Position numbers and translations under genes: made by a program. Under the pieces are notes generated by a model that saw nothing but the letters and a program-made list of their open reading frames with translations, ran no database searches and was not told the origin of the DNA. Of a DNA stretch of 53,840 nucleotides, positions 8,833-51,423 are shown one piece after another (position 1 is the stretch's first letter; each line of letters opens with the position of its first letter). Source of the stretch: Fragilaria crotonensis (taxonomy: Eukaryota > Bacillariophyta > Fragilariophyceae > Fragilariales > Fragilariaceae); the NCBI GenBank assembly GCA_022925895.1, contig JAKSYS010000423.1:1-53840 (forward strand). Reading direction: 5' to 3'.

Positions 8833-11800
8833 TGGCAGGTTTCATGCTCAACCCTCCTAGCGTATAGTTCGGTATATTTTATACACTCCATACAAAATCC
8901 TAGAGTAGAATTCCGCCAAATAATTCTGCAATCTTTCCGCAAATCGTATCCATAATCATTCATGGTTGATCATTGCACTCCTCAACTCAGAATGCACAAA
9001 GCCATTGTCAAAGTCAAGGACACATCTGTGCCCTTTGAAGGCTTTACTCACCCTCTCAATATCGGAGTATGACAGGAGCTCCTGCTTTATGTGTGAAGGC
9101 ATTCTGGCAGCAGGAGATGTTCTGTCGGCGTTGGAAGCTGAATTCGAATCTTCATGTTCTGCTGCTGCTCGCTTCTGCTGCTCCTGATGAAGGTGGTGGT
9201 AAGTACAAATATATGCACGTGCACGCGAAGCAAACTTCTGAATCCTTTGCTTTGTCAGCACATTCAAAGGGCAGGTGCAGTCTTTTACCAGTTGTTTAAA
9301 ATTGTCGCGTCCTCGCTTCCGAGACAGCGGCATGCGTCGATAATATGCTTTCGAATGTGCCCAGCTGTATTCGATACCTTCGCCGGCAAGCTCAGCGTGA
9401 AACTTGGGTGTCAGAAGTACCGTTACTCCAAGCTGTGTTCCGAGATACTGCAGCGCCGTTTCCTCTTCTTTGAAATCTCTGCAGTTGCCAAGTAGGCTGC
9501 GAAGTGAGTAATGTAAGTCAACTTCGCCCGTGATTGAATCCTTTCGCCCTTCCAAAGTGTATTTTTCTAACGATGCTCGTTCTATTAGCCCTCGCTCTCC
9601 GAGGACTTGCAAAAGACCTTTGGGTTTCCCCTCCCATCCAGGTGTGACTTGTTCCTTGCGATCATGTAACTCAATTTGGTTGTTGCGAGCAAAATCTTGA
9701 AGTTCTTTTTTGGAATAGCCTCGTTGCTGCTGAAGAGTAACACCTTTAGCATGCAATGCTTCAAGAAGCAGCTTTTTGGATCTCTCGACAAGTCTGATCT
9801 TGCCTGTTGGTCGGTCATGTCGTTGCATGGCTTGTTGCTCTGGAGACAGGTACCATGGCCCTTTATCTTTGGCTGCGAACGTCATTGATTGAATGTCCGC
9901 AACACGCAGCTCAGGTAAGTGTGGACCAAGATATCCTTCTTCTGCCATAATTGTCGTGTCTCTCATCAATGGCTGTGCTCCTCCGTAGGATTTTGACATA
10001 TGCTGCGCGCTGAGGGCTTGATCGCGTTTGCGAGCATGACCTTGACTGTGATCGAAGAGGAAGACCAGATCGAATTCGGGATAGAGGACTTGTAAACAAT
10101 CCACGACATCTTCCAGTTGGAGACTCATGTAGAAAGAATTCCAGTATCCTTCATTGTTGGCCCTGATGAAAAGGTATTTAACAAACGGTGATTCTGTCAA
10201 TGCCACTTTGTTGATTGTGCCTAGTATTTCCATGGCTGCGTGCGTATCAGTGTAAGTAGCTCTGCTTTGTTGTCGATGTAAGTTAATCCTCGCTAACTCA
10301 TCCTCCGTTAAAGGTCTTCCAAACCCAAACTCTCGCGAGACGAACGCAGATAACATATATCCATCGCCTTCCGACTTCGGAAGAAGGGGACGCTGTCCCT
10401 TTGGTCCTATCCAAGTCTTTGCTCCTAGGAGATATTGGGCGAATACACTTTCATCCTGGCCGACGATCATTATCGGCCTCGCAATTGACGACACCCGAAT
10501 GCTGGTTGTTGGATTGATGCTTTCCTGCTGAGTGCTACTATTCATGCTGGTGGCATCGGCACCACCGCAGTGCCGACTCCAGTAGTCAATATGGAATTCA
10601 ACTAGCTCCTCGTCTCGGATAATGTCAAAATAACGATGTCCAAATCCAATGTCCAACCCTTCTATCATCGTAGCTTTTGCAACAGGCAATTGTATCCATC
10701 GATTGCAATAGGGCTCCAATTTTGTGAGATACGTCTCGCAGAAGGTTTGTCGATTTGCAACCACATCCTCCCGTTCGTGGCCATCGACATAGAAGCTCTT
10801 CCTTCTAACATCATATTTGAAGCCTAGTAACCGCATCCAGCGCCATGTAGTTGAAAAGCTCATTGACTGAAGTCTATGAGCTTGAAGAAAGGAATCAGTT
10901 ACTGCTGCTTTGTTGCGGTCAGCATTGTCGTCAGCAGTACTTGCAGTGCTTGTTCCCGACGAGTCAACAACAATTTTGTGTTGTTGTTCATGATTGTCAT
11001 CCTGCCATACTACTACCAATCGTGGTATCACCGTAGACACAATGAAGTCATGCACACCTTCTATTGTTAGGGTTGTTAAATTCCTGACACCGAATGCAAC
11101 AATCTGTTCTTTTGCATCAGGAAAAGTTTCGAGCAATCGCGGCAGTGGTCGCTTCCCACACTGGACGTAGGCATTCGGGTGGGGGAAGCATTCGAGCTTC
11201 CTGTAGATTTTATTCCACTCTGCAATGGTCCTATAGAAAGTTGCTTGTTGCATTCCAAGATCATTCAAGCGGGAACAGGCTTCCTTACAACAATCCTGCC
11301 AAGTCCATTGGTTCATTTTTTGTAGTGCAAGTTGATATGCCAGACACAAAAATGATGCTCGTTGCCGAATCTCGAAGATTTCAATCTTCGAACAGAAATT
11401 ATCAGGATCTCCGCCCTTCACCACACCACGCCAGCTGTCTTCGCTCTCATGAACTGCCTGTAGTGCTGCAATGCGACGTTCAAGCGTCTCCTGAGGACTT
11501 TCGTCCAAAGTCATTGTATCAACGAGAGTAGTACTGTTGCTGCCAACGCCGACGCTGCCGATGCCAACGCCTCTACATATTGGTCCTCTGCTGCTGAACA
11601 ACTGACAAGCCTCTGGACTTGCAGGCCAATACGAGCATGAACTGCTGGCAACCGCTTCTAATCTTTGACGCTTTTTTTGGGACTCTTCCTCATCTTCATT
11701 GGCATCACCATCAGCCCCGACACTTGTTCCAAACACTGTACTAGAATCGACGGTAGCAGGTCGTCCCCTTGTTGATGGAATTGCAAGAGCATTTGAGGCG

Positions 11801-12401
11801 ATTTCGAGCACCCTATTCTTCCAAGCTCCATTCAGTGGAGATGGATACATCACCTGCTTCAACTCTTGAGTTAAATAGTAGTAGTGACGGTGCTGGAAGG
11901 TGACTCGGAACATGCCAGTAAGGTTTGACCCATCAAACCTCAACATTGCCGATCCGTAACAGCTGGATTTGGCAAACGCTGCATTGAATTGGCGGACACT
12001 AAAGATAAGGCCTTCATCAATGTGTCCAAGCTTCCTCAGTGCTTCCACCCAAGTTTCTGCAGGGAGCCAAGAATTCAACAATCTGGGTCCGTACGTGATG
12101 TCAGAACGAATCAACATGACAGCCCTGATAACAACAGCATAAATTCTCGTGTCAGCCATCGAGATAAACAACCCAGCCAACACAGCTCGTTACTTGGGAG
12201 TATTTTGAAGGCTTCTGTGTGTGCTGGGTAGTTTAAAAAGAGTGCATCTGTTGCAAACAACGGCATGCAATATCATTGTGGAAACCTCGCTTTCAGCACG
12301 AGAGTTTTTTCTAAACGTGACGTCACAGGCGCAATAATTCTTCCATTATGTAGAATCTATACTACGGCCTGCGCTAGGTTTCTCAGTTGCGAAACCTGCC
12401 A
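8833..12401. mobile_element. 3.57 kb TA-inserting DNA transposon with a large DDE transposase
   Basis: The left end (8833 onward, TGGCAGGTTTC) and right end (GAAACCTGCCA ending 12401) are inverted repeats, with TA on both sides (8831-8832; 12402-12403). Imperfect similarity runs inward about 50 bases, sharing an ACC(T)..CTAGCG block and a TATAxxxTxTAC block. The element contains one gene, the 1075-residue minus-strand transposase. The intact frame and paired ends make it a candidate autonomous copy. Confidence 0.8.
8956..12183 (-). CDS. Large DDE transposase, 1075 aa (IS630/Tc1/mariner-related)
   Basis: The enzyme would excise and insert the surrounding transposon. Motifs compatible with a DDE/RNase H fold are GQDESVFAQ (Asp577), FLFDHSQGH (Asp711) and GEGIEYSWAH followed by K and RR (Glu938). 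The E..W...K....R pattern is characteristic of the IS630/Tc1/mariner clan, and the TA target agrees. Spacing between the second and third acidic residues (about 226) is much longer than in classical Tc1 enzymes; the insert includes KGLLQVLGERGL and a Cys-containing segment. The N-terminal third has no domain I recognise, apart from an acidic-basic linker (DEEESQKKRQR) near residue 165. The start could be Met1 or Met9 (MADTR). The frame is uninterrupted over 3.2 kb. Related giant transposases exist in fungi and animals (from memory); I know no name for this lineage. Confidence 0.8.
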   Translation of the reverse strand: MLAGLFISMADTRIYAVVIRAVMLIRSDITYGPRLLNSWLPAETWVEALRKLGHIDEGLIFSVRQFNAAFAKSSCYGSAMLRFDGSNLTGMFRVTFQHRHYYYLTQELKQVMYPSPLNGAWKNRVLEIASNALAIPSTRGRPATVDSSTVFGTSVGADGDANEDEEESQKKRQRLEAVASSSCSYWPASPEACQLFSSRGPICRGVGIGSVGVGSNSTTLVDTMTLDESPQETLERRIAALQAVHESEDSWRGVVKGGDPDNFCSKIEIFEIRQRASFLCLAYQLALQKMNQWTWQDCCKEACSRLNDLGMQQATFYRTIAEWNKIYRKLECFPHPNAYVQCGKRPLPRLLETFPDAKEQIVAFGVRNLTTLTIEGVHDFIVSTVIPRLVVVWQDDNHEQQHKIVVDSSGTSTASTADDNADRNKAAVTDSFLQAHRLQSMSFSTTWRWMRLLGFKYDVRRKSFYVDGHEREDVVANRQTFCETYLTKLEPYCNRWIQLPVAKATMIEGLDIGFGHRYFDIIRDEELVEFHIDYWSRHCGGADATSMNSSTQQESINPTTSIRVSSIARPIMIVGQDESVFAQYLLGAKTWIGPKGQRPLLPKSEGDGYMLSAFVSREFGFGRPLTEDELARINLHRQQSRATYTDTHAAMEILGTINKVALTESPFVKYLFIRANNEGYWNSFYMSLQLEDVVDCLQVLYPEFDLVFLFDHSQGHARKRDQALSAQHMSKSYGGAQPLMRDTTIMAEEGYLGPHLPELRVADIQSMTFAAKDKGPWYLSPEQQAMQRHDRPTGKIRLVERSKKLLLEALHAKGVTLQQQRGYSKKELQDFARNNQIELHDRKEQVTPGWEGKPKGLLQVLGERGLIERASLEKYTLEGRKDSITGEVDLHYSLRSLLGNCRDFKEEETALQYLGTQLGVTVLLTPKFHAELAGEGIEYSWAHSKAYYRRMPLSRKRGRDNFKQLVKDCTCPLNVLTKQRIQKFASRARAYICTYHHLHQEQQKRAAAEHEDSNSASNADRTSPAARMPSHIKQELLSYSDIERVSKAFKGHRCVLDFDNGFVHSELRSAMINHE

Positions 12402-13070: not shown

Positions 13071-13499
13071 TCCTACTATATTATAAATTAATTGTGTGCG
13101 TGCGTGCGTCCGTCTGTTACGGAGTATGACCACTCTGGGGTACTGTTGCACTGTTACGTGGATTACATGTAGTCGTACTACAGGTCTACAGTACATAAAC
13201 GGACGGTAATTTATGTTGAAACGACAGTGTGTTACGTTACTGAACTACAATACTGTACGAATTCAAAGTTACTAGATGGAATACTCATTGAATTTGCTGT
13301 GAACAGGTTGCTTGACAAATGCTACTGTAAAATATACCGTGCGATGAACTGCAATACTGGGGCATGATAGAGTACCTGGTACTGTACTTCATGAAGTTTC
13401 CTACGTTGGTACCATGGTACTGCATACTGTAGGGGAAAAAAGTAGTGGTACGGAGTACGACCAGGTTGGGGGTCCGATCAAATGTGAGGTACCCACTAG
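13071..13499. other. GTAC-rich spacer between two mobile elements
   Basis: Contains tracts such as GGTACTGTAC and TACCATGGTACTG, with no supportable gene. A CTAG lies at 13496-13499, immediately before the next element. Confidence 0.5.
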
Positions 13500-14743
13500 T
13501 GTCTATTTGACTTCTGTCTTTAATTAAAGACAAATCTTTAATTAAAGACAGTTTGGAGGGTATGCCGAAAATGGACTTCCCGCAACTATCATGAAAAACG
13601 ACGATTACCGTCGTGTTCAGCATATTCTCAAACCCTGTGGCACATGACAGTTTCCTTTAACTCTCACAATAACGCCATGAATTCCACAATCCAAAGAAGA
13701 GCGATGAATTTTTGATGAGTTTTCTCAATTTATTCTCATTAGTTAAATTACGTAGAATTTATACTGTATGCCACGACAGATTGCTAATTCATGACACATT
13801 TTGACCCTATGGTTAGATCAGACACCTGTCGCTTTTGACCGAAAACGAGGGCATAAATGTATTCATTATATAACAATAAGTGTAGGTCAAATGGGAGATG
13901 TGTTTTAATTCGCGGTATCAACGAAGTACCGTTGACTGGAAACATTCGATCAACAGCAAAAAAAACCGTTGAAAAATTATGTAGAATATATACGATACCC
14001 TACGCCAGATTTTCTGATTCAAGGCACATTTTGACCCTATAGTAAGATCATGCTCCTGTCACTTTCAACCAATAGTGAGGTCTCCAACGTCTTCGGCATA
14101 TATTCATTGTCGCAAGGGCATATACAAGGTTTGTCTGAAGCACAGGTACGTAAGCAATATGATGGAATAGAAAGTGTTCGATTCTCAAAAATCAACCGTA
14201 GAAAACTCATGTAGAATATGTACTATCCTCCTCGTCAGATTCCTGTGGTCATTACTCATTTTGATCGTGTGATTTGATAATACTCGTGCCATTTTCAACC
14301 AAAAGTGAGGTCACCGTCATATTCTTCATCTTTTACATAACGCCGGGGCACGTGGGAGGTTTGTCTGAAAGTTAAGTATTTACGCAGCAGTATTCGTTGG
14401 AAAAGAGCTCAATTTAGAAAGGGATCGTTGAAAAAATTCATGTAGAATGTATACCATGGCCCACGACAGATTTCCGCGTGCCGCAGAGTATTGATACGGT
14501 GAGCTAAAACGTAAAATTATGTACCAGCAACCAACCAACATGATTGCATGAACTAACATTTGAAGGAAAAAGTGCTTATTTGTGGCGTAATTCATATCGG
14601 TTGTCGGCCATTGTTCAAGTCAATTTTTGCGTTGCCGTGGTATCGATTGCACGAAGGGCCGTCTTGCAAACGTACGAAAAAATCTGTCTTTAATTAAAGA
14701 TAATTTTGTCTTTAATTAAAGATTGAGCCCAGACGGATAGACA
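13500..14743. mobile_element. Non-autonomous piggyBac-related element, 1.24 kb
   Basis: The ends read TGTCTATTTGAC and, in reverse complement, TGTCTATCCGTC, each next to a CTAG (13496-13499; 14744-14747). Within 60 bases of each end lie two copies of the palindrome TCTTTAATTAAAGA. The right-hand 130 bases share blocks such as TGGTATCGAT and CGTCTTGCAAA with the right end of the full piggyBac-like element at 48334-51419. There is no transposase; the interior is mostly a ~230-bp tandem array. It therefore appears to be a non-autonomous relative dependent on a piggyBac transposase supplied in trans. Confidence 0.8.
13700..14560. repeat. ~230-bp tandem array inside the non-autonomous element
   Basis: The landmark GTAGAAT occurs at 13752, 13981, 14211 and 14442, a spacing of 229, 230 and 231. 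Each copy is preceded by a CGTTGAAAAA-like run and followed by TATAC...C(A/G)CCAGATT, then CATTTTGACC and AACCAAxAGTGAGG in the better copies. Units are diverged at many positions. This is satellite-like DNA carried inside a transposable element. Confidence 0.8.
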
Positions 14744-15134
14744 CTAGTAGTATGTATAAAGTAAATTTTCTTCGACAATGCATGGAGATGGACATGTCGG
14801 CTATCCATAGAGCATAGAGTACATGTATTATAGGATTATAGGTTATAGGTCATTGTTGGCCAATAGATGACCTACGGCAATTGATGTACTCGGAGTAATT
14901 CATGGTATTCTCGAATATATGCGAGAGTTTAAGTGCCAGTTCTTCGTGCCTTCTCATTACTGTGCGCACCCTTCTGAGAAGGAAGGAGTCGCTTTTCCTC
15001 AACGTCGGCGCGTATCACAACCTCTGAACATTCATTAACAGGTAGGCAATCAACTCAAGGACATAATAAGTCGGGCTTCGGGTCTGTCACGAAAGTTGTG
15101 ACACCGTCCCAATCACTTTTCCGGAACCTTCGCA
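14744..15134. other. Upstream region of the PAS-protein gene
   Basis: About 390 bases with no gene. It includes a CTAG that may be the element's target duplication, a TATAAAGTAAA tract at 14756 and a TTATAGGATTATAGGTTATAGG direct repeat near 14829. A promoter is expected here but no specific element can be assigned. Confidence 0.4.
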
Positions 15135-42410: not shown

Positions 42411-45400
42411 ATGCTTGGCCGAGTGCTCTTACCCCTGGTTCTTAGAGCGCTCGTTGGCCATCCTCCTTCTACCACGGCGTTCCCAGCACCCAGCTATGGC
42501 GACTCATGTCTTACACAACCCATCCATCGGCAGCTTTTCGGTGCACCGACCTTCGACCCCACACCTCAAGTCACCGCCCTTCTGCAAAATCATCTCCTTT
42601 CGCCATCATCTCTCGGCCGCCTTCTTCGCACCGTCCTCCTTCGGTACCTTTTCTCCCGCCTATTCATCTGTCTTCGCATAGTGTCTCTACTCCCATCGTG
42701 CCTCCTCCATATCTTCTTCCCTTCTCCGCAAGGAACTCACACACCCATCGTCTCGCTCCCATCCTTCATCCCTCTTCATGTCGCTCCATCTGCTTCTCCT
42801 TCTGCTCCTTCCCCATCTTTCGTCTTTCCCCTTCGTCTCACCTCGGGCATGTCCTCTCTCCCTCTGGCTCTCAATGCGCACATCGCTCGCTCCGACTTTG
42901 ATCCTGATTTCGTGGCTGCGCTTCTCTCCCGCACTCCCGGCGCCGACGTTGTCGATATCATTCTCGACACTGGCTGCACCTTCTCCATAACGCCCGACAA
43001 ACGCGATTTCGTCACCTACGAACCCGCTCACGTTAGCCAGGTCCAGACCGTAAATGGCCCTACTGCTTTGGTGGGCACCGGTCTCGTTCGCTGGACTCTG
43101 ATCAGCGAGGACGGCCAAACAATGGATCTTCTTATCCCATGTCATCACGTCCCTGCCTCATCCGTTCGCCTGCTGTCACCCCAAGATTTCTGCCAGTTCC
43201 ATGGTTTCGATCGCTCTCAAGATCATTTCGGGGGAAATTCCAACTACTTTTGGATGCACGCTGATTCTCAGCGCACCCGCTTCCAGTGTCCCATTGACCC
43301 ACGGTCCAATCTCCCCGTCGCTCTTGCCAAAACTCCTTGCAATCCGGGGGGGTGCATTGCTCTTGAAAGCTCTACTCCTGAATCGCCGGGTCCTCCTTGC
43401 GCATCTTGCCAGCGTCACAGCCTCGTCAGTCTATCCGTCCTCGACGAAACCAATCAGAACATCACCGCCGCTCAAAAGGATCTCCTACTCTGGCACTTTC
43501 GTCTCGGCCATCTTGGCTTCTCGCACCTTCAACACTTGATGCGACCTCGAACAATCGAAGACCTCCGCTCGAAAATCAAGTCCGAGAAACCAATTGTCAT
43601 TGATCCATGCATTGTGCCCAAGAATCCGTCAACACGCACCTGCAAGCCACCACTCTGTGCATCATGCCAGATCGCTCGCGCCAAACGACGCCCAACTGAT
43701 GTCTCAACCACTGTCGTGCACCAAGAATCCATCCTCAAGGAAGAGAATCTCGCTCCTGGGTCGCGCGTGTCCATCGACCAATATGAATCAGCCGTACGTG
43801 GTCGTCTCGCCACCACAAAAGGACGCGAAGCTTTCGGCCATAAGTATGCGGGCGGTACCATCTTCTGCGATCACGCAAGCGGCTACATCCAATGCTTCCA
43901 TCAGGTGTCTCTACGGACTGCCGATACCCTCGTTTCAAAACGTGCATTTGAACGGTCTGCCAAGTCATGCGGCGTCAAGATAAAATCCTACCACGGTGAC
44001 AACGGCGTTTTCAAAGCAAAAGAATTCACAGACTCCATCACGCAGTCGGACCAAGAACTACAATTCTCAGGAGTCGGCGCTCATCATCAAAATGGAGTCG
44101 CCGAACGGGCCATTCGCACCGTAACCGAGAAGGCTCGCACGATGATGCAACACTCCTTCATCCACTGGCCTGACGAATTTCAGGTACAACTCTGGCCCTT
44201 TGCGTTGGACTATGCTTGCTGGCTTCACAACCACACTCCACACAACTCTCATGGTTGGGCCCCGCTCGAGCTGTTCTGTGGAACGCAGGTTGATTGTCAA
44301 CATTTACAGCGAGCTCGCGTCTGGGGGTGTCCTTCTTATGTTCTCAGCCCAACTCTACAAGATGGCAAGAAAATTCCGAAATGGGCACCAAGAGCGCGTC
44401 GTGGCCAATTTCTTGGTTTCAGCCAGACTCACTCTTCCATGATCGGTTTGATGCGAAATGTACAGACAGGCTCCATCACGCCCCAGTTTCACGTGGTCTT
44501 CGATGAACTCTTCTCTACCGTCCACAGTCTCGATGAAGACGACCCCACATGGGTCGAATTGTTCGTATCGGAGCGCGATTACTATGGCCCCGATGAAGAG
44601 GAAGAAGACGCCGATGCCATCGCCTTTCCAGATATCGATCCCTCCTGGCTTCCCATCTCCGAAATTCACCAGCATCCTACAGAGGAGTCCACAACCGCTA
44701 TCCCCACTGCCGTCATTGACAGTCGTACCGTACACCGAACAAGCACTGAAGCCACTATTGATGATAATCCTCCCCCTTCCGCGCCAATCGATGTCACAAT
44801 TTCAGAGAGCACTGACGATGGAGTCGACATCCAGAACGAAACCGCCAGATATGATAACCCTGACGAGGATCACATTCCACTCGAGACCCCACTTCGCTCC
44901 GCACGCGTTCGTCAGCCAAACCGAAGAGTCTTTGGTGACGAATGGACCAACCACACCGTCCAATTAACTCCGACATCTCGTACCATGCTCGGGCACATCA
45001 TTCCCAGTCTCACACACGATGACCTCTTCCTCCACTCCCTCGATTGGGACGCTCCGTTCTCCTCCGAGTATGGGTCTCTCCACAGCCTCAACCTCCTTCA
45101 CGTCGATCCTTTCACCAACGAAGTCGATTGGGTTCATCCATTTACCCTGGCAGCAAAAGCATCCAGTGCCGATACTCCTACCTTTCGTGAAATTCTGTTA
45201 CTGCCACCTGACGAAGTCGAACTCTGGTACGAGTCCATGGACATCGAGCTCCAGGCATTGCACAACAAGAAGACCATGACAGAAATCAATCGTGTCGACG
45301 TCCCACACGGCAAGCAAATCGTCAAATCCACCTGGGCCTTCAAGAAGAAGAGACGGCCAAATGGAGAAATGTACAAACGCAAATCACGTTTTTGTATTCG

Positions 45401-46763
45401 AGGGGATCTTCAGATACTCGACGACAACGACAGCACATTTTCTCCTGTGGTCGACTGGAGTACCGTTCGCCTGCTCTTCATCATCTGCGTCGCACTCGGA
45501 ATGAAGAGTCGAACCATCGACTTCAATTCGGCTTTCGTCCAGAGTGACTTGCCCGAACCCATCTATCTCGAGTTACCGCCCGGTTACGGCGTTGTCGGTG
45601 AAGACAAGGTCTATCGCGTCGACAAATCCCTCTACGGTGACGTACGCGCTGCCCGCCTCTGGTACAAGCACCTTACCATGGCACTCCTCACCAAGCTTGG
45701 ATTCGTCAAAAGCGAGATTGATTCCTGCTTATACCTCCGCGACAACTTGATTTTTGTCTTCTATGTTGATGATGGCATCATCATCAGTCCCAACGACGAT
45801 GCCATTTTGAGTTTCATTGACGAGCTTCGCGTATGCGGTTTCGATCTTGACATTGAAGCCGACTACGCTGGGTATTTGGGAGTTGACATCATCACACAAC
45901 CCGATGGCACGATCCTGATGGCGCAATCCGGCCTCATCGCTCGTATTCTTACCGACTTTGGTCTCAGCGATTCCGCGTCCTCGAAGGTCACTCCTGCTTC
46001 CGAAGTTCTTGGACCCTTTAAGGCAAGCCCTCCTTTTGACGAGCACTTCAACTATCGCTCTGTCCTGGGCAAAATCCTCTACGTCTCTTCCAATACTCGC
46101 TGCGAAATCACATTGGCAAATCATCAGTGTTCCAGGTTCTCGATCGATCCAAGGTCACCTCACGGAGTCGCACTCAAACGGATTGGACGATATCTACTCG
46201 GTACCCGCGACAAAGGCATGATCATAAAGCCTAGCAAGGACCTCACTCTCGACTGCTACGCCGACGCCGACTTCTGCGGTCTCTTCTCCACTTCGGATCC
46301 AGATGACCCAAAATCCGTCAAATCCCGCTCTGGTTATGTCATCACTCTAGGGAAGATTCCCGTATCTTGGGGAAGCAAATTGCAGACCGAGACCGCCCTT
46401 TCTACCATGGAGGCTGAATACATCTCCCTTTCCCAGGCCTTGCGCGTTCTCTTACCCCTTCGTATCATTCTCGAAGAAGTCTCCAGTCATCTTCATCTCA
46501 AGCCCGATCCACGTTCCGTAATCAAGTCCACCATCTTCGAAGATAACCAAGCCTGCCTCCTTCTGGCTACTTCTGATCCACCCAAGCTTACTCCGCGGTC
46601 AAAGAGCATCGCCGTCAAATACCATTGGTTCCGCGAACACCTTGAGCCGGGCGTGATCGACATCAAACCCATCGCTTCTGAAGACCAACTCGCAGACATC
46701 TTTACAAAACCACTGGCTGCGATCAGTTTTCTCAGGTTGCGCAAACGATTGCTCGGCTGGTAA
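42411..46763 (+). CDS. Copia pol polyprotein, 1450 aa
   Basis: Encodes protease, integrase, reverse transcriptase and RNase H for element replication. The aspartic protease DTG is at residue 186 (ILDTGCTFSI). The GAG-pre-integrase HHCC finger spans about 361-420 (WHFRLGHLGF..LCASCQIARAKR). Integrase acidic residues are in SIDQYE (about 456), HGDNGVF (about 530) and QNGVAERAIR (about 564). The RT begins near 970 (KSTWAFKKKRRPNG), with FYVDDGIII at 1117-1125. RNase H occupies about 1282-1440 (CYADADFCG, TMEAEYISL, EDNQACLLL, VKYHWFRE, DIFTKPL). Integrase before RT defines Ty1/copia. The frame is the same as gag and is separated only by UGA, suggesting readthrough. The first 145 residues are low-complexity Pro/Ser/Leu. 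The sequence is pyrimidine-rich on this strand, unlike the host genes nearby. Confidence 0.93.
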   Translation: MLGRVLLPLVLRALVGHPPSTTAFPAPSYGDSCLTQPIHRQLFGAPTFDPTPQVTALLQNHLLSPSSLGRLLRTVLLRYLFSRLFICLRIVSLLPSCLLHIFFPSPQGTHTPIVSLPSFIPLHVAPSASPSAPSPSFVFPLRLTSGMSSLPLALNAHIARSDFDPDFVAALLSRTPGADVVDIILDTGCTFSITPDKRDFVTYEPAHVSQVQTVNGPTALVGTGLVRWTLISEDGQTMDLLIPCHHVPASSVRLLSPQDFCQFHGFDRSQDHFGGNSNYFWMHADSQRTRFQCPIDPRSNLPVALAKTPCNPGGCIALESSTPESPGPPCASCQRHSLVSLSVLDETNQNITAAQKDLLLWHFRLGHLGFSHLQHLMRPRTIEDLRSKIKSEKPIVIDPCIVPKNPSTRTCKPPLCASCQIARAKRRPTDVSTTVVHQESILKEENLAPGSRVSIDQYESAVRGRLATTKGREAFGHKYAGGTIFCDHASGYIQCFHQVSLRTADTLVSKRAFERSAKSCGVKIKSYHGDNGVFKAKEFTDSITQSDQELQFSGVGAHHQNGVAERAIRTVTEKARTMMQHSFIHWPDEFQVQLWPFALDYACWLHNHTPHNSHGWAPLELFCGTQVDCQHLQRARVWGCPSYVLSPTLQDGKKIPKWAPRARRGQFLGFSQTHSSMIGLMRNVQTGSITPQFHVVFDELFSTVHSLDEDDPTWVELFVSERDYYGPDEEEEDADAIAFPDIDPSWLPISEIHQHPTEESTTAIPTAVIDSRTVHRTSTEATIDDNPPPSAPIDVTISESTDDGVDIQNETARYDNPDEDHIPLETPLRSARVRQPNRRVFGDEWTNHTVQLTPTSRTMLGHIIPSLTHDDLFLHSLDWDAPFSSEYGSLHSLNLLHVDPFTNEVDWVHPFTLAAKASSADTPTFREILLLPPDEVELWYESMDIELQALHNKKTMTEINRVDVPHGKQIVKSTWAFKKKRRPNGEMYKRKSRFCIRGDLQILDDNDSTFSPVVDWSTVRLLFIICVALGMKSRTIDFNSAFVQSDLPEPIYLELPPGYGVVGEDKVYRVDKSLYGDVRAARLWYKHLTMALLTKLGFVKSEIDSCLYLRDNLIFVFYVDDGIIISPNDDAILSFIDELRVCGFDLDIEADYAGYLGVDIITQPDGTILMAQSGLIARILTDFGLSDSASSKVTPASEVLGPFKASPPFDEHFNYRSVLGKILYVSSNTRCEITLANHQCSRFSIDPRSPHGVALKRIGRYLLGTRDKGMIIKPSKDLTLDCYADADFCGLFSTSDPDDPKSVKSRSGYVITLGKIPVSWGSKLQTETALSTMEAEYISLSQALRVLLPLRIILEEVSSHLHLKPDPRSVIKSTIFEDNQACLLLATSDPPKLTPRSKSIAVKYHWFREHLEPGVIDIKPIASEDQLADIFTKPLAAISFLRLRKRLLGW

Positions 46764-48329: not shown

Positions 48330-48333
48330 CTAG

Positions 48334-51300
48334 TGTCTAAACGCCCGCTGTCGTTAATTAAAGATGGTCCACTGGTGAAATCTTTAATTAAAGATCAGTT
48401 TTGGCCCTTACTCAACTTCTTCATTTTTCATTTTTCACCAAAATTGAGACGGCCAATGTGTTTTCCATTGAATTAAACCCTGTGGGCCAAATGGGTGCTT
48501 CTTAGTTAGCGACAGTTCCTGAATAATGCTTTAGAAAGCAAAACTGGAGCCCATTTTCGGTGAGTTTTTGGGGTCGAAAAATAACACGTTTTGAGTACAT
48601 GCCTACGCAGCCTACACAGGGTCAGGTCCGTCGAGGCCTCAATTGACTCATCAAGTTCATCATCTTCCACTCGGATTGAGCCAAAACACAGAGTTACAAT
48701 TGCATTGATACGCTTTTATAGAAGAGGGTTGTTACTTCGGTACATATCCAGTTTTCATTCTTTCGTGAGTGATTCCAAGGCCATTGAGCCTCATCCAGAA
48801 AGAAAAAAATCCTTGTCTGACGAGCGCCACTATTTCTTTGACACCGCAATTCTTGATTCCGTGCTGTGATCAGCGTGTTGTTGACCATGCCACTTCAACC
48901 CAACGACCAAAGAGTTGTTGCTGGTGCTTGTGTTGAAACGAAGGCCATGTTTGTGACGGCCATGGCTGAGTGCAGTCGTCGCTTTGGCACCAACGCGAAG
49001 ACAAAAGTAGTCCCAGGAGTTGTTGTGTCAGTCAGCCATGAAAGTCCTCCTGGCCGAGCCCGTGCTACTACATTCATAATTGCAAATTATTACTTCGGTC
49101 CGAATGATGTGAAACAAGGTAAGGTGAATATTCGAAGCGTCGCGGCTGTCGAATGTTCCCAGTTGCATGAGGAGCTCAAAGAAATTCTGCGTCAACGTGA
49201 ATCACCAATCAACAATATTGCGGTGTCACCTCCAGCTGCCAATGCCCCGAACATAATGGCACATCAACCGTCACAAGCAGCAGCAAGAGGAGATGACGGC
49301 AGCAGTGCTACTACTCCTACTACTGCAAGCAGTATCAGGACACCACCAGGAACAACAACAACAACAACTACAACACCGGCAGCTGATGTTCGCACCACCA
49401 ACGATGACGAAGGTAGTCCCACACCTTTGATTTTTCATGAGACTGAATGGTTTGAAGCAGATCCGACAGTATTGGAACAAGACATGAATGGTCCAGTAGT
49501 CCGAAGGTTGTGGTCAATTCGAGATCATCGCACTGGTACCTTGTTGGAACAAGATTGCGATGAAGGTACATTGATGACACGACTCGACTATTTTCTGTGC
49601 ATGTTTCCTCCGCAAGCACTTCTGTCCATTGTCCGGTTGACAACTCGACAACTTACTCTTTTATCAAAACCAGCAACATCGAAAGGTGAGATTGTGAAGT
49701 TCTTTGGAGTGATTGTTTTGATAACTAAGTTCGAATTCGATGATCGTCGAAGTCTCTGGGCAACAACGGCGACGTCGAAATATATTCCGGCGCCATTGTT
49801 TGGAAAGATGATGTCACGCAATCGCTTTGATGATTTATGGCGATGTATTCGATTCAGTGATCAGCCATCAGTTCGTTCTACTGACATGACGGCAGAACAG
49901 TATCGTTGGAAACTTGTCGATGATTTTGTAAGGGAGTTCAATGATCATCGAGCATCAACATTTTCTCCATCGGAGAGAATTTGTGTTGATGAGTCTATCT
50001 CTCGCTGGTACGGAAAGGGAGGCCATTGGATAAACCATGGGCTGCCCATGTACGTTGCTATCGATCGCAAGCCCGAAAATGGATGCGAGATTCAGTGTGC
50101 ATCCTGTGGACAAAGTGGTGTCATGATTCGATTGAAGCTTGTAAAGACAGCCGAGGAGGAAGCTCGCCACATTTCATTGATGGATGAAGCTGCATCCGGT
50201 GAAGTCATGTCTGATCAAGGACTCTTACATGGGGCGAAGGTGATGAGAGACCTACTCATGCCATGGATGCATTCCGACAGAATTGTATGCGGTGATTCGT
50301 ACTTTGCTTCGGTTCCAGCGGCAACGATGATGATGAGGTATGGAATGCGATTTATTGGGGTAGTGAAATCTGCGACTCGACAATATCCTATGGCTTTCCT
50401 ATCACAAGTTGAATTGAACAATCGTGGCGACCGAAAAGGGATGGTGACAAGAGGTGGAGATACTGCTGGCGATCCGAAATTGCTGGCTTTTGTCTGGATG
50501 GATCGACAGAGACGATATTTCATTGCAACGTGTTGTTCGCTTGCTGAGGGGAGTCCGTACAAGCGACAGCGATGGAGACAGCTTGATGATTCATTGGAGG
50601 AGGACGAACATGCCGATCCGCAGCGTGTGGATTTAGTGGTGCCTCAGCCAAAAGCAGCCGAAACTTACTATGAGACATGTGCTATGATCGATCGTCACAA
50701 TCGACATCGACAGGATACGCTTGGAATTGAGAACAAGCTTGTCACACAAAGTTGGTCGATGCGGGTCAACTTGACTATTCTTTCGATGATAGTGGTTGAC
50801 ACTTGGCTTGCATACAAACAATGCAGGAGCGAGCAGGTGGAGAATCAGAAGAGTTTCTACACATTGCTGGCAGAAGAACTCATAGATAACAGATTGGATG
50901 CGGTGAATCCTCGAGATCGCTTTTCGACGCCAAGGAGGGAAGAGTTTGCACAATTGATTTATGACCGAACCGGCGATCCCAGAGCTGGAGTATCAGCTCA
51001 CCTCACCCCAACAAAGAGAAAGAAGCAAACGGCTATGGGGGAGATCACTTCGTTTAGTCTTCAGGGCCGATGCCGAGTCTGCAAGTCTCTGACGACGTTC
51101 ATCTGCTCATTGTGCGAAGATCAATTGGAGTGCATGACCACAATTTGGATTTGTCATACCAAGAAAGGAAAACTGTGCTTTCCCACTCACCTGGAGTCAT
51201 GCCATGGTGAATAATTAATAGGTTTCAATTGTTACTTTATGATTGTTATGCTTGATGTGTGATGATATTGACGACGGCAATTGGCCATTGTTGATGTCGA

Positions 51301-51419
51301 ATTTTGTGTTGGTGATGGTATCGATGTACATCGACCGTCTTGCAAAACATACGAAAATAGCCATCTTTAAAAAACGACAGATTTGTCTTTAATTAAAGAT
51401 ACCCCCGGGCGTTTAGACA
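48334..51419 (+). mobile_element. PiggyBac-like DNA transposon, 3.09 kb, apparently intact, CTAG-flanked
   Basis: Terminal repeats start TGTCTAAACGCCCG at 48334 and end CGGGCGTTTAGACA at 51419, 14 of 14 matching. CTAG stands on both sides (48330-48333, 51420-51423), whereas known piggyBac elements duplicate TTAA. Subterminal palindromes built on TTTAATTAAAG occur at 48353-48364 and 48382-48395 on the left and 51386-51400 on the right, with a damaged copy near 51362-51372. The transposase (48866-51214) is uninterrupted, so this may be an autonomous copy. The non-autonomous element at 13500-14743 shares its ends. Confidence 0.88.
48866..51214 (+). CDS. PiggyBac-type transposase, 782 aa
   Basis: Cut-and-paste transposase of the surrounding element. 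The DDE domain (DDE_Tnp_1_7) spans about residues 240-660. Landmarks are MMSRNRFDDLWRCIRFSD, ERICVDESISRWYGKGG (Asp375), DRIVCGDSYFAS (Asp477) and MIDRHNRHRQDTLG (Asp609). The position equivalent to the fourth Asp of insect piggyBac appears to be Asn612. The C-terminus is Cys/His-rich (CRVCKSLTTFICSLCE ... CHTKKGKLCFPTHLESCHG), matching the zinc-binding end-recognition domain of piggyBac. The N-terminal 110 residues contain a conserved-looking segment (VVPGVVVSVSH...ATTFIIANYYFG), followed by a Thr/Ser-rich linker. Met8 (MPLQPNDQ, 48887) is an equally good start. The frame is clean over 2.3 kb, which supports recent activity. Confidence 0.92.
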   Translation: MISVLLTMPLQPNDQRVVAGACVETKAMFVTAMAECSRRFGTNAKTKVVPGVVVSVSHESPPGRARATTFIIANYYFGPNDVKQGKVNIRSVAAVECSQLHEELKEILRQRESPINNIAVSPPAANAPNIMAHQPSQAAARGDDGSSATTPTTASSIRTPPGTTTTTTTTPAADVRTTNDDEGSPTPLIFHETEWFEADPTVLEQDMNGPVVRRLWSIRDHRTGTLLEQDCDEGTLMTRLDYFLCMFPPQALLSIVRLTTRQLTLLSKPATSKGEIVKFFGVIVLITKFEFDDRRSLWATTATSKYIPAPLFGKMMSRNRFDDLWRCIRFSDQPSVRSTDMTAEQYRWKLVDDFVREFNDHRASTFSPSERICVDESISRWYGKGGHWINHGLPMYVAIDRKPENGCEIQCASCGQSGVMIRLKLVKTAEEEARHISLMDEAASGEVMSDQGLLHGAKVMRDLLMPWMHSDRIVCGDSYFASVPAATMMMRYGMRFIGVVKSATRQYPMAFLSQVELNNRGDRKGMVTRGGDTAGDPKLLAFVWMDRQRRYFIATCCSLAEGSPYKRQRWRQLDDSLEEDEHADPQRVDLVVPQPKAAETYYETCAMIDRHNRHRQDTLGIENKLVTQSWSMRVNLTILSMIVVDTWLAYKQCRSEQVENQKSFYTLLAEELIDNRLDAVNPRDRFSTPRREEFAQLIYDRTGDPRAGVSAHLTPTKRKKQTAMGEITSFSLQGRCRVCKSLTTFICSLCEDQLECMTTIWICHTKKGKLCFPTHLESCHGE

Positions 51420-51423
51420 CTAG

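Follow-up and report, generated by a model that had tools for sequence, protein, structure and literature searches.

A CTAG-targeting transposon of the piggyBac superfamily in the diatom Fragilaria crotonensis

Contig C363 (JAKSYS010000423.1; 53,840 nucleotides, hereafter the window) of the 62.1-Mb assembly of the freshwater pennate diatom Fragilaria crotonensis carries a transposon bounded by CTAG, and CTAG is its target site duplication. From its sequence and that of its relatives, the element is very probably a DNA transposon of the piggyBac superfamily that moves by cut-and-paste and whose transposase picks CTAG, with a preference for TA-CTAG-TA, duplicating it on insertion. The complete element spans 3086 bp on the + strand (48334..51419) with an open transposase frame. 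Its terminal inverted repeats (TIRs) form a perfect 14-bp pair, TGTCTAAACGCCCG on the left (48334..48347, +) and the reverse complement on the right (51406..51419, −), both read directly and listed by a pattern search, with CTAG outside them at 48330..48333 and 51420..51423 (no strand assigned); the left CTAG also follows the family-wide pattern. Just inside the TIRs lie subterminal palindromes CTTTAATTAAAG at 48382..48393 and 51387..51398 (both +). The insertion is present in two alleles, on C363 and C339, with 98.85% identity across 4866 bp, flanks included. Direct reading of 48330..51423 thus bears out an earlier note on this DNA, which had described perfect 14-bp repeats with CTAG on each side and had offered two readings: a changed target preference, or CTAG as the true terminus without any duplication.

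The CTAG specificity is common to the whole clade of copies in this genome. A TIR pattern that was neutral as to flanks gave 52 matches, representing 46 distinct ends, and the preceding 4-mer was CTAG at 38 of them, TTAG at two, CTAA at two, and AGAG, GTAG, TAGT and CAAG at one each. Chance does not account for these flanks: the window has 65 CTAG (1 per 828 bases), which makes CTAG less frequent than TTAA (1 per 481), yet CTAG precedes 38 of the 46 ends. A second TIR pattern matched 168 places compared with 4 for its reversed control, and the pairs taken from it are only those ends that had a partner among the first 100 of the 168 places. The TIR search patterns themselves contained TGTCTA; a search for equal 4-mers found its ends without that pattern.

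With single ends left aside and two allelic copies dropped (C339, allelic to C363, and C578, allelic to C273), 57 non-allelic insertions were read at both ends, 17 of which had been chosen by equal 4-mers of any kind, while the remaining 40 were not flank-selected. CTAG stood on both sides of 49 of the 57 insertions, TTAG on both sides of one (C38) and CTAA on both sides of one (C415), and six were imperfect (CTAG/CTAC, CTAG plus one extra base, TAAG/CTAG, GAAG/CTAC, CTAG/CCAG and AGAG/CTAC); the corresponding numbers for the 40 were 32, one, one and six. The 4-bp duplication that characterizes the piggyBac superfamily is therefore seen as equal 4-mers in 51/57 insertions and in 34/40 of those not flank-selected. 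TTAA, the canonical piggyBac duplication, was found on both sides in none of the 57. The earlier note had recommended aligning at least 20 copies with their flanks, and had named TTAA-flanked copies as evidence against its claim; the 57 insertions exceed the former number and include no copy with TTAA on both sides. TTAA pairs initially seen around two copies (L048 and L058) sit, by our own reading, in subterminal TTAACCCC repeats, and the true ends of these copies were not found; the equal-4-mer search likewise gave no ends for L053, L057 and L060. The preference extends beyond the 4-mer to the palindrome TA-CTAG-TA: the base at −1 is A in 56% of the sites and that at −2 is T in 54%, compared with 29% and 32% at the same positions of CTAGs in the window. 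Copies flanked by CTAG reach down to 48% protein identity, and in a tree for which a sister group (group B, below) was chosen as the root they cluster with a relative from a metagenome, the left end of which also follows CTAG; four members of the tree (C691, C608a, C659 and C592) are without typed ends.

Unoccupied sites distinguish a duplication from element sequence. For 38 insertions, of which C363 and C339 are alleles, the two flanks were joined and used to query the genome. Candidate sites came from about the best 40 per list, which may leave out weak or diverged ones; 13 insertions gave a spanning element-free site. For insertions in repeats, a subset of the listed copies was retrieved (for C764, 5 of about 30). 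Among 33 aligned element-free sites, 23 held one CTAG, four a single variant (CTAT twice, CGAG and ATAG), two CTAGAG and one CTAGCTAG, and three, all relatives of C207, were too diverged to be read. In the cleanest case, C209 against C111, 446 of 446 bases are identical and the empty site has one CTAG. In five repeat-borne insertions (C764, C827, C608, C232 and C677), other copies of the repeat show CTAG at the same place, and CTAG therefore most likely pre-dates insertion there. No element-free site was found in the flank search for the C38 or C415 insertions; four aligned places for C415 match its right flank only, which is another repeat, and were excluded from the 33. A repeat beginning GGGCCACCCTTATGAG (L113-L116 and the C415 right flank) has TTA or TAA directly before it at four separate places, which would fit a TWA-duplicating, PIF/Harbinger-like element.

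These sites decide between the two readings of the earlier note. If CTAG belonged to the element end and insertion duplicated nothing, its self-complementarity would simply lengthen the inverted repeat; however, 23 of the 33 element-free sites hold one CTAG, and the non-palindromic TTAG pair of C38 and CTAA pair of C415 stand in direct rather than inverted orientation, which does not fit a 4-mer owned by the terminus. CTAG as element terminus is thus ruled out, with a negligible probability left to it, and the changed target preference is supported. The empty-site check advised in the note gave the single CTAG expected of a duplication, although none of these sites came from the window copies themselves. 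It is equally improbable that TTAA duplications later mutated to CTAG, or that the family has no true preference and simply lies in repeats rich in CTAG: part of the insertions do lie in repeats, and TTAG and CTAA are one step from both TTAA and CTAG, but CTAG is found on both sides of 49/57 insertions and TTAA of none, the window holds fewer CTAG than TTAA, and element-free copies of several different repeats already carry CTAG.

Three of the element-free sites are candidate excision scars. C50 (L172) has CTAGCTAG where C133 holds the element (354-column alignment, 97.7%), C869 (L173) has CTAGAG where C73 holds it (901 bases aligned with 0 mismatches; of 4 gap bases, 2 fall at the junction), and C879 (L174) has CTAGAG compared with C27 (identity 92.7%); none of the three contains TIR bases. 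Excision by piggyBac leaves 4-base 5' overhangs (PMC7351741), and the scars would fit such overhangs being filled in or trimmed before joining: complementary 5' CTAG overhangs may be rejoined precisely, or sometimes filled in to give CTAGCTAG or CTAGAG. AG slippage could be an alternative source of CTAGAG. As for the seamless excision typical of piggyBac, these candidate scars are what was seen, and a precise excision is indistinguishable from a site that was never filled.

The transposase frame (48890..51214, +) encodes 774 residues from the ATG at 48890. The earlier note had reported an intact 782-residue transposase; the open frame stands, but 782 residues require translation to begin at the GTG at 48866. 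The closest relative in the database (P0001, 92% identity) likewise has 774 residues. The protein matches DDE_Tnp_1_7 (PF13843; E 9e-37, above the curated cut-off), as do 42/42 relatives, and the catalytic DDD triad is present as D367, D469 and D601, which are invariant in 42 sequences and align with the aspartates of piggyBat and group B. Together with the predicted structure, which has the piggyBac transposase fold, this shows a transposase with the predicted fold and the catalytic aspartates of piggyBac. Five cysteines (C728, C731, C739, C742 and C755) are invariant and may mark the C-terminal cysteine-rich DNA-binding domain of the superfamily, and an extra folded N-terminal domain, PWWP/Tudor-like, is predicted. 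The loop after the first aspartate shows very little variation in the CTAG clade (DES[IM]SRWYG[KQ]GGHWIN...GLP.Y...RKPENGCEIQ). Comparison of target-binding residues with insect piggyBac, also proposed in the note, places Y374 at the position of R275 and Y594 at that of N440, according to piggyBat alignments and spacing from the catalytic aspartates. The 14-bp TIRs are within the 12–19 bp range given for piggyBac in PMC2872659, while the counted ends start with TGTCTA and not with the CC[C/T]T of that source.

How the target changed can be proposed from the piggyBac strand transfer complex, in which all four bases of TTAA are unpaired, A3 forms a hydrogen bond to T0 and stacks on Y283, N440 contacts A-2, and the target is organised by the omega loop (PMC7351741). 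Compared with TTAA, CTAG retains the central TA and alters exactly the outer pair. Among 23,417 sites of Trichoplusia ni (T. ni) piggyBac in HEK-293 cells, 23,026 were TTAA, 110 CTAA, 100 TTAG and 9 CTAG (PMC3499496); the order is inverted in the diatom branch, where CTAG is dominant and TTAG and CTAA are rare half-steps. We suggest that strand transfer, as in piggyBac, takes place with a 4-bp stagger on a tetranucleotide that is melted, that the outer T0-A3 became C0-G3 half-site by half-site via TTAG or CTAA with the central TA kept, and that the altered omega loop of the clade may hold the new recognition. A rival with only slightly less than an even chance is that the target change is real but caused outside the omega loop, by the insertion domain, the residue at the N440 position or the N-terminal PWWP/Tudor-like domain. 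The replacement of N440 and R275 by tyrosines and the predicted extra domain speak for it; on the other hand, N440 touches A-2, while CTAG has the same central TA as TTAA, and it is the omega loop that organises the target in piggyBac (PMC7351741).

Several observations weigh against CTAG targeting and the role proposed for the loop. Flanks are unequal in 6/57 insertions, a single end (L075) is preceded by CAAG, and the relatives of C207 are without a clean CTAG. The focal insertion is carried by both haplotypes, and the flank search found no element-free site for either window copy. The link between loop and specificity is correlative and comes from a single branch, and because the omega loop (371-398) is modelled at a predicted local distance difference test score (pLDDT) below 50, we put this step forward only as a hypothesis. 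Taken together, the target change is well supported, and its mechanism is proposed.

A sister group in the same genome, group B (copies on C162, C2, C24, C230 and C706; L001, L003, L005 and L153-L156), resembles the CTAG clade in its PF13843 match and 4-bp duplications, and matches it by profile (E 6.5e-33); a PDB sequence search with group B gave no match. Unlike the CTAG clade, it has CGGATATTGG/CGGTTTA ends and AT-rich, varied duplications, equal in 5/5 copies read at both ends (ATAC, AAAA, CTAT, ATTT and ATTT), and its omega loop lacks two 3-residue stretches and has one extra residue further on. Relatives of the C162 site (85%) are compatible with a single ATAC at the element-free site, and those of the C24 site differ from it by a 3-base gap at the insertion point. 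Neither of the two groups typed has a TTAA target; the typing covers a part of the PF13843 matches in the genome, and a TTAA family may exist elsewhere in it. We consider it an evenly balanced proposition that the target code of diatom piggyBacs was rewritten at least twice, giving a strict CTAG branch (outer T-A to C-G via TTAG/CTAA, with an altered omega loop) and a sister branch loosely targeting AT-rich 4-mers. A search of viral contigs gave one relative, a transposon of the CTAG clade, on IMGVR_UViG_3300049043_000356 (L157, L171; 47% identity), with the left end CTAG-TGTCTATCCTCCCG; its right end was looked for and not found, and the contig, filed as viral, is perhaps diatom DNA.

The piggyBat element of Myotis lucifugus targets TTAA. 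The diatom element differs from it (9c0f), and likewise from T. ni piggyBac (6x67; PMC7351741; PMC3499496), in its main target, in TIRs opening with TGTCTA, in a transposase about 180 residues longer with the extra predicted N-terminal domain, and in the altered omega loop. The earlier note took TTAA as the duplication of all piggyBac elements known to it, which as a general statement is too strong: TTAA is canonical, but TATG is reported for PiggyBac-2_Cvir of the oyster in PMC10813416, which also lists scattered TTAG, CTAA and others and interprets them as mutations, and T. ni piggyBac in human cells uses CTAA, TTAG and, nine times, CTAG (PMC3499496). The oyster element is like the diatom family in the non-TTAA duplication reported for it within the superfamily, although this is TATG instead of CTAG, and the available text of PMC10813416 gives no empty-site proof. 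PiggyMac of Paramecium is a domesticated piggyBac transposase whose 4-base overhangs keep only the central TA (PMC3408717); it is a developmental excision enzyme, whereas the diatom element is a transposon with its own target preference. Further sources report TTAA with some deviations (PMC10140906; PMC12732532), and a Phaeodactylum tricornutum element is described as weakly related to piggyBac in PMC2806351, the available text of which does not state its target. A search of open-licence full-text literature turned up no piggyBac family that mainly targets CTAG; in papers checked for the word, CTAG was a linker (PMC1939997), a Tol2 flank (PMC4818426), a readthrough motif (PMC10085805) and an entry in the table of T. 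ni piggyBac insertion sites (PMC3499496).

The window contains a second, diverged member (13500..14743, 1244 bp, no strand assigned) with TGTCTA... ends and four CTTTAATTAAAG motifs, and the CTAG that the note had described on both flanks was read directly at 13496..13499 and 14744..14747 (strand likewise unassigned). A copy on contig C27 matches it at 95% identity. The transposase gave no tblastn match to this second member, which is therefore a non-autonomous relative. Elsewhere in the window are a 1450-residue open frame that looks by eye like a Ty1/copia polyprotein (42411-46763, +) and a 1075-residue open frame (8956-12183, −).

TTAA targeting is treated as a hallmark of piggyBac. Annotation and genome engineering make use of it, its structural explanation lies in contacts to the melted TTAA, and the diatom family shows that this trusted rule can evolve. 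A natural branch with clean CTAG targeting allows the structural explanation of TTAA to be tested directly, and makes available an open frame for a transposase whose palindromic target is different and rarer. The search for non-TTAA relatives is widened as well, since annotation based on TTAA would miss such elements. If the code was indeed rewritten at least twice, target choice would be an evolvable module, and piggyBac-like integrases with further 4-bp targets might be found or engineered.
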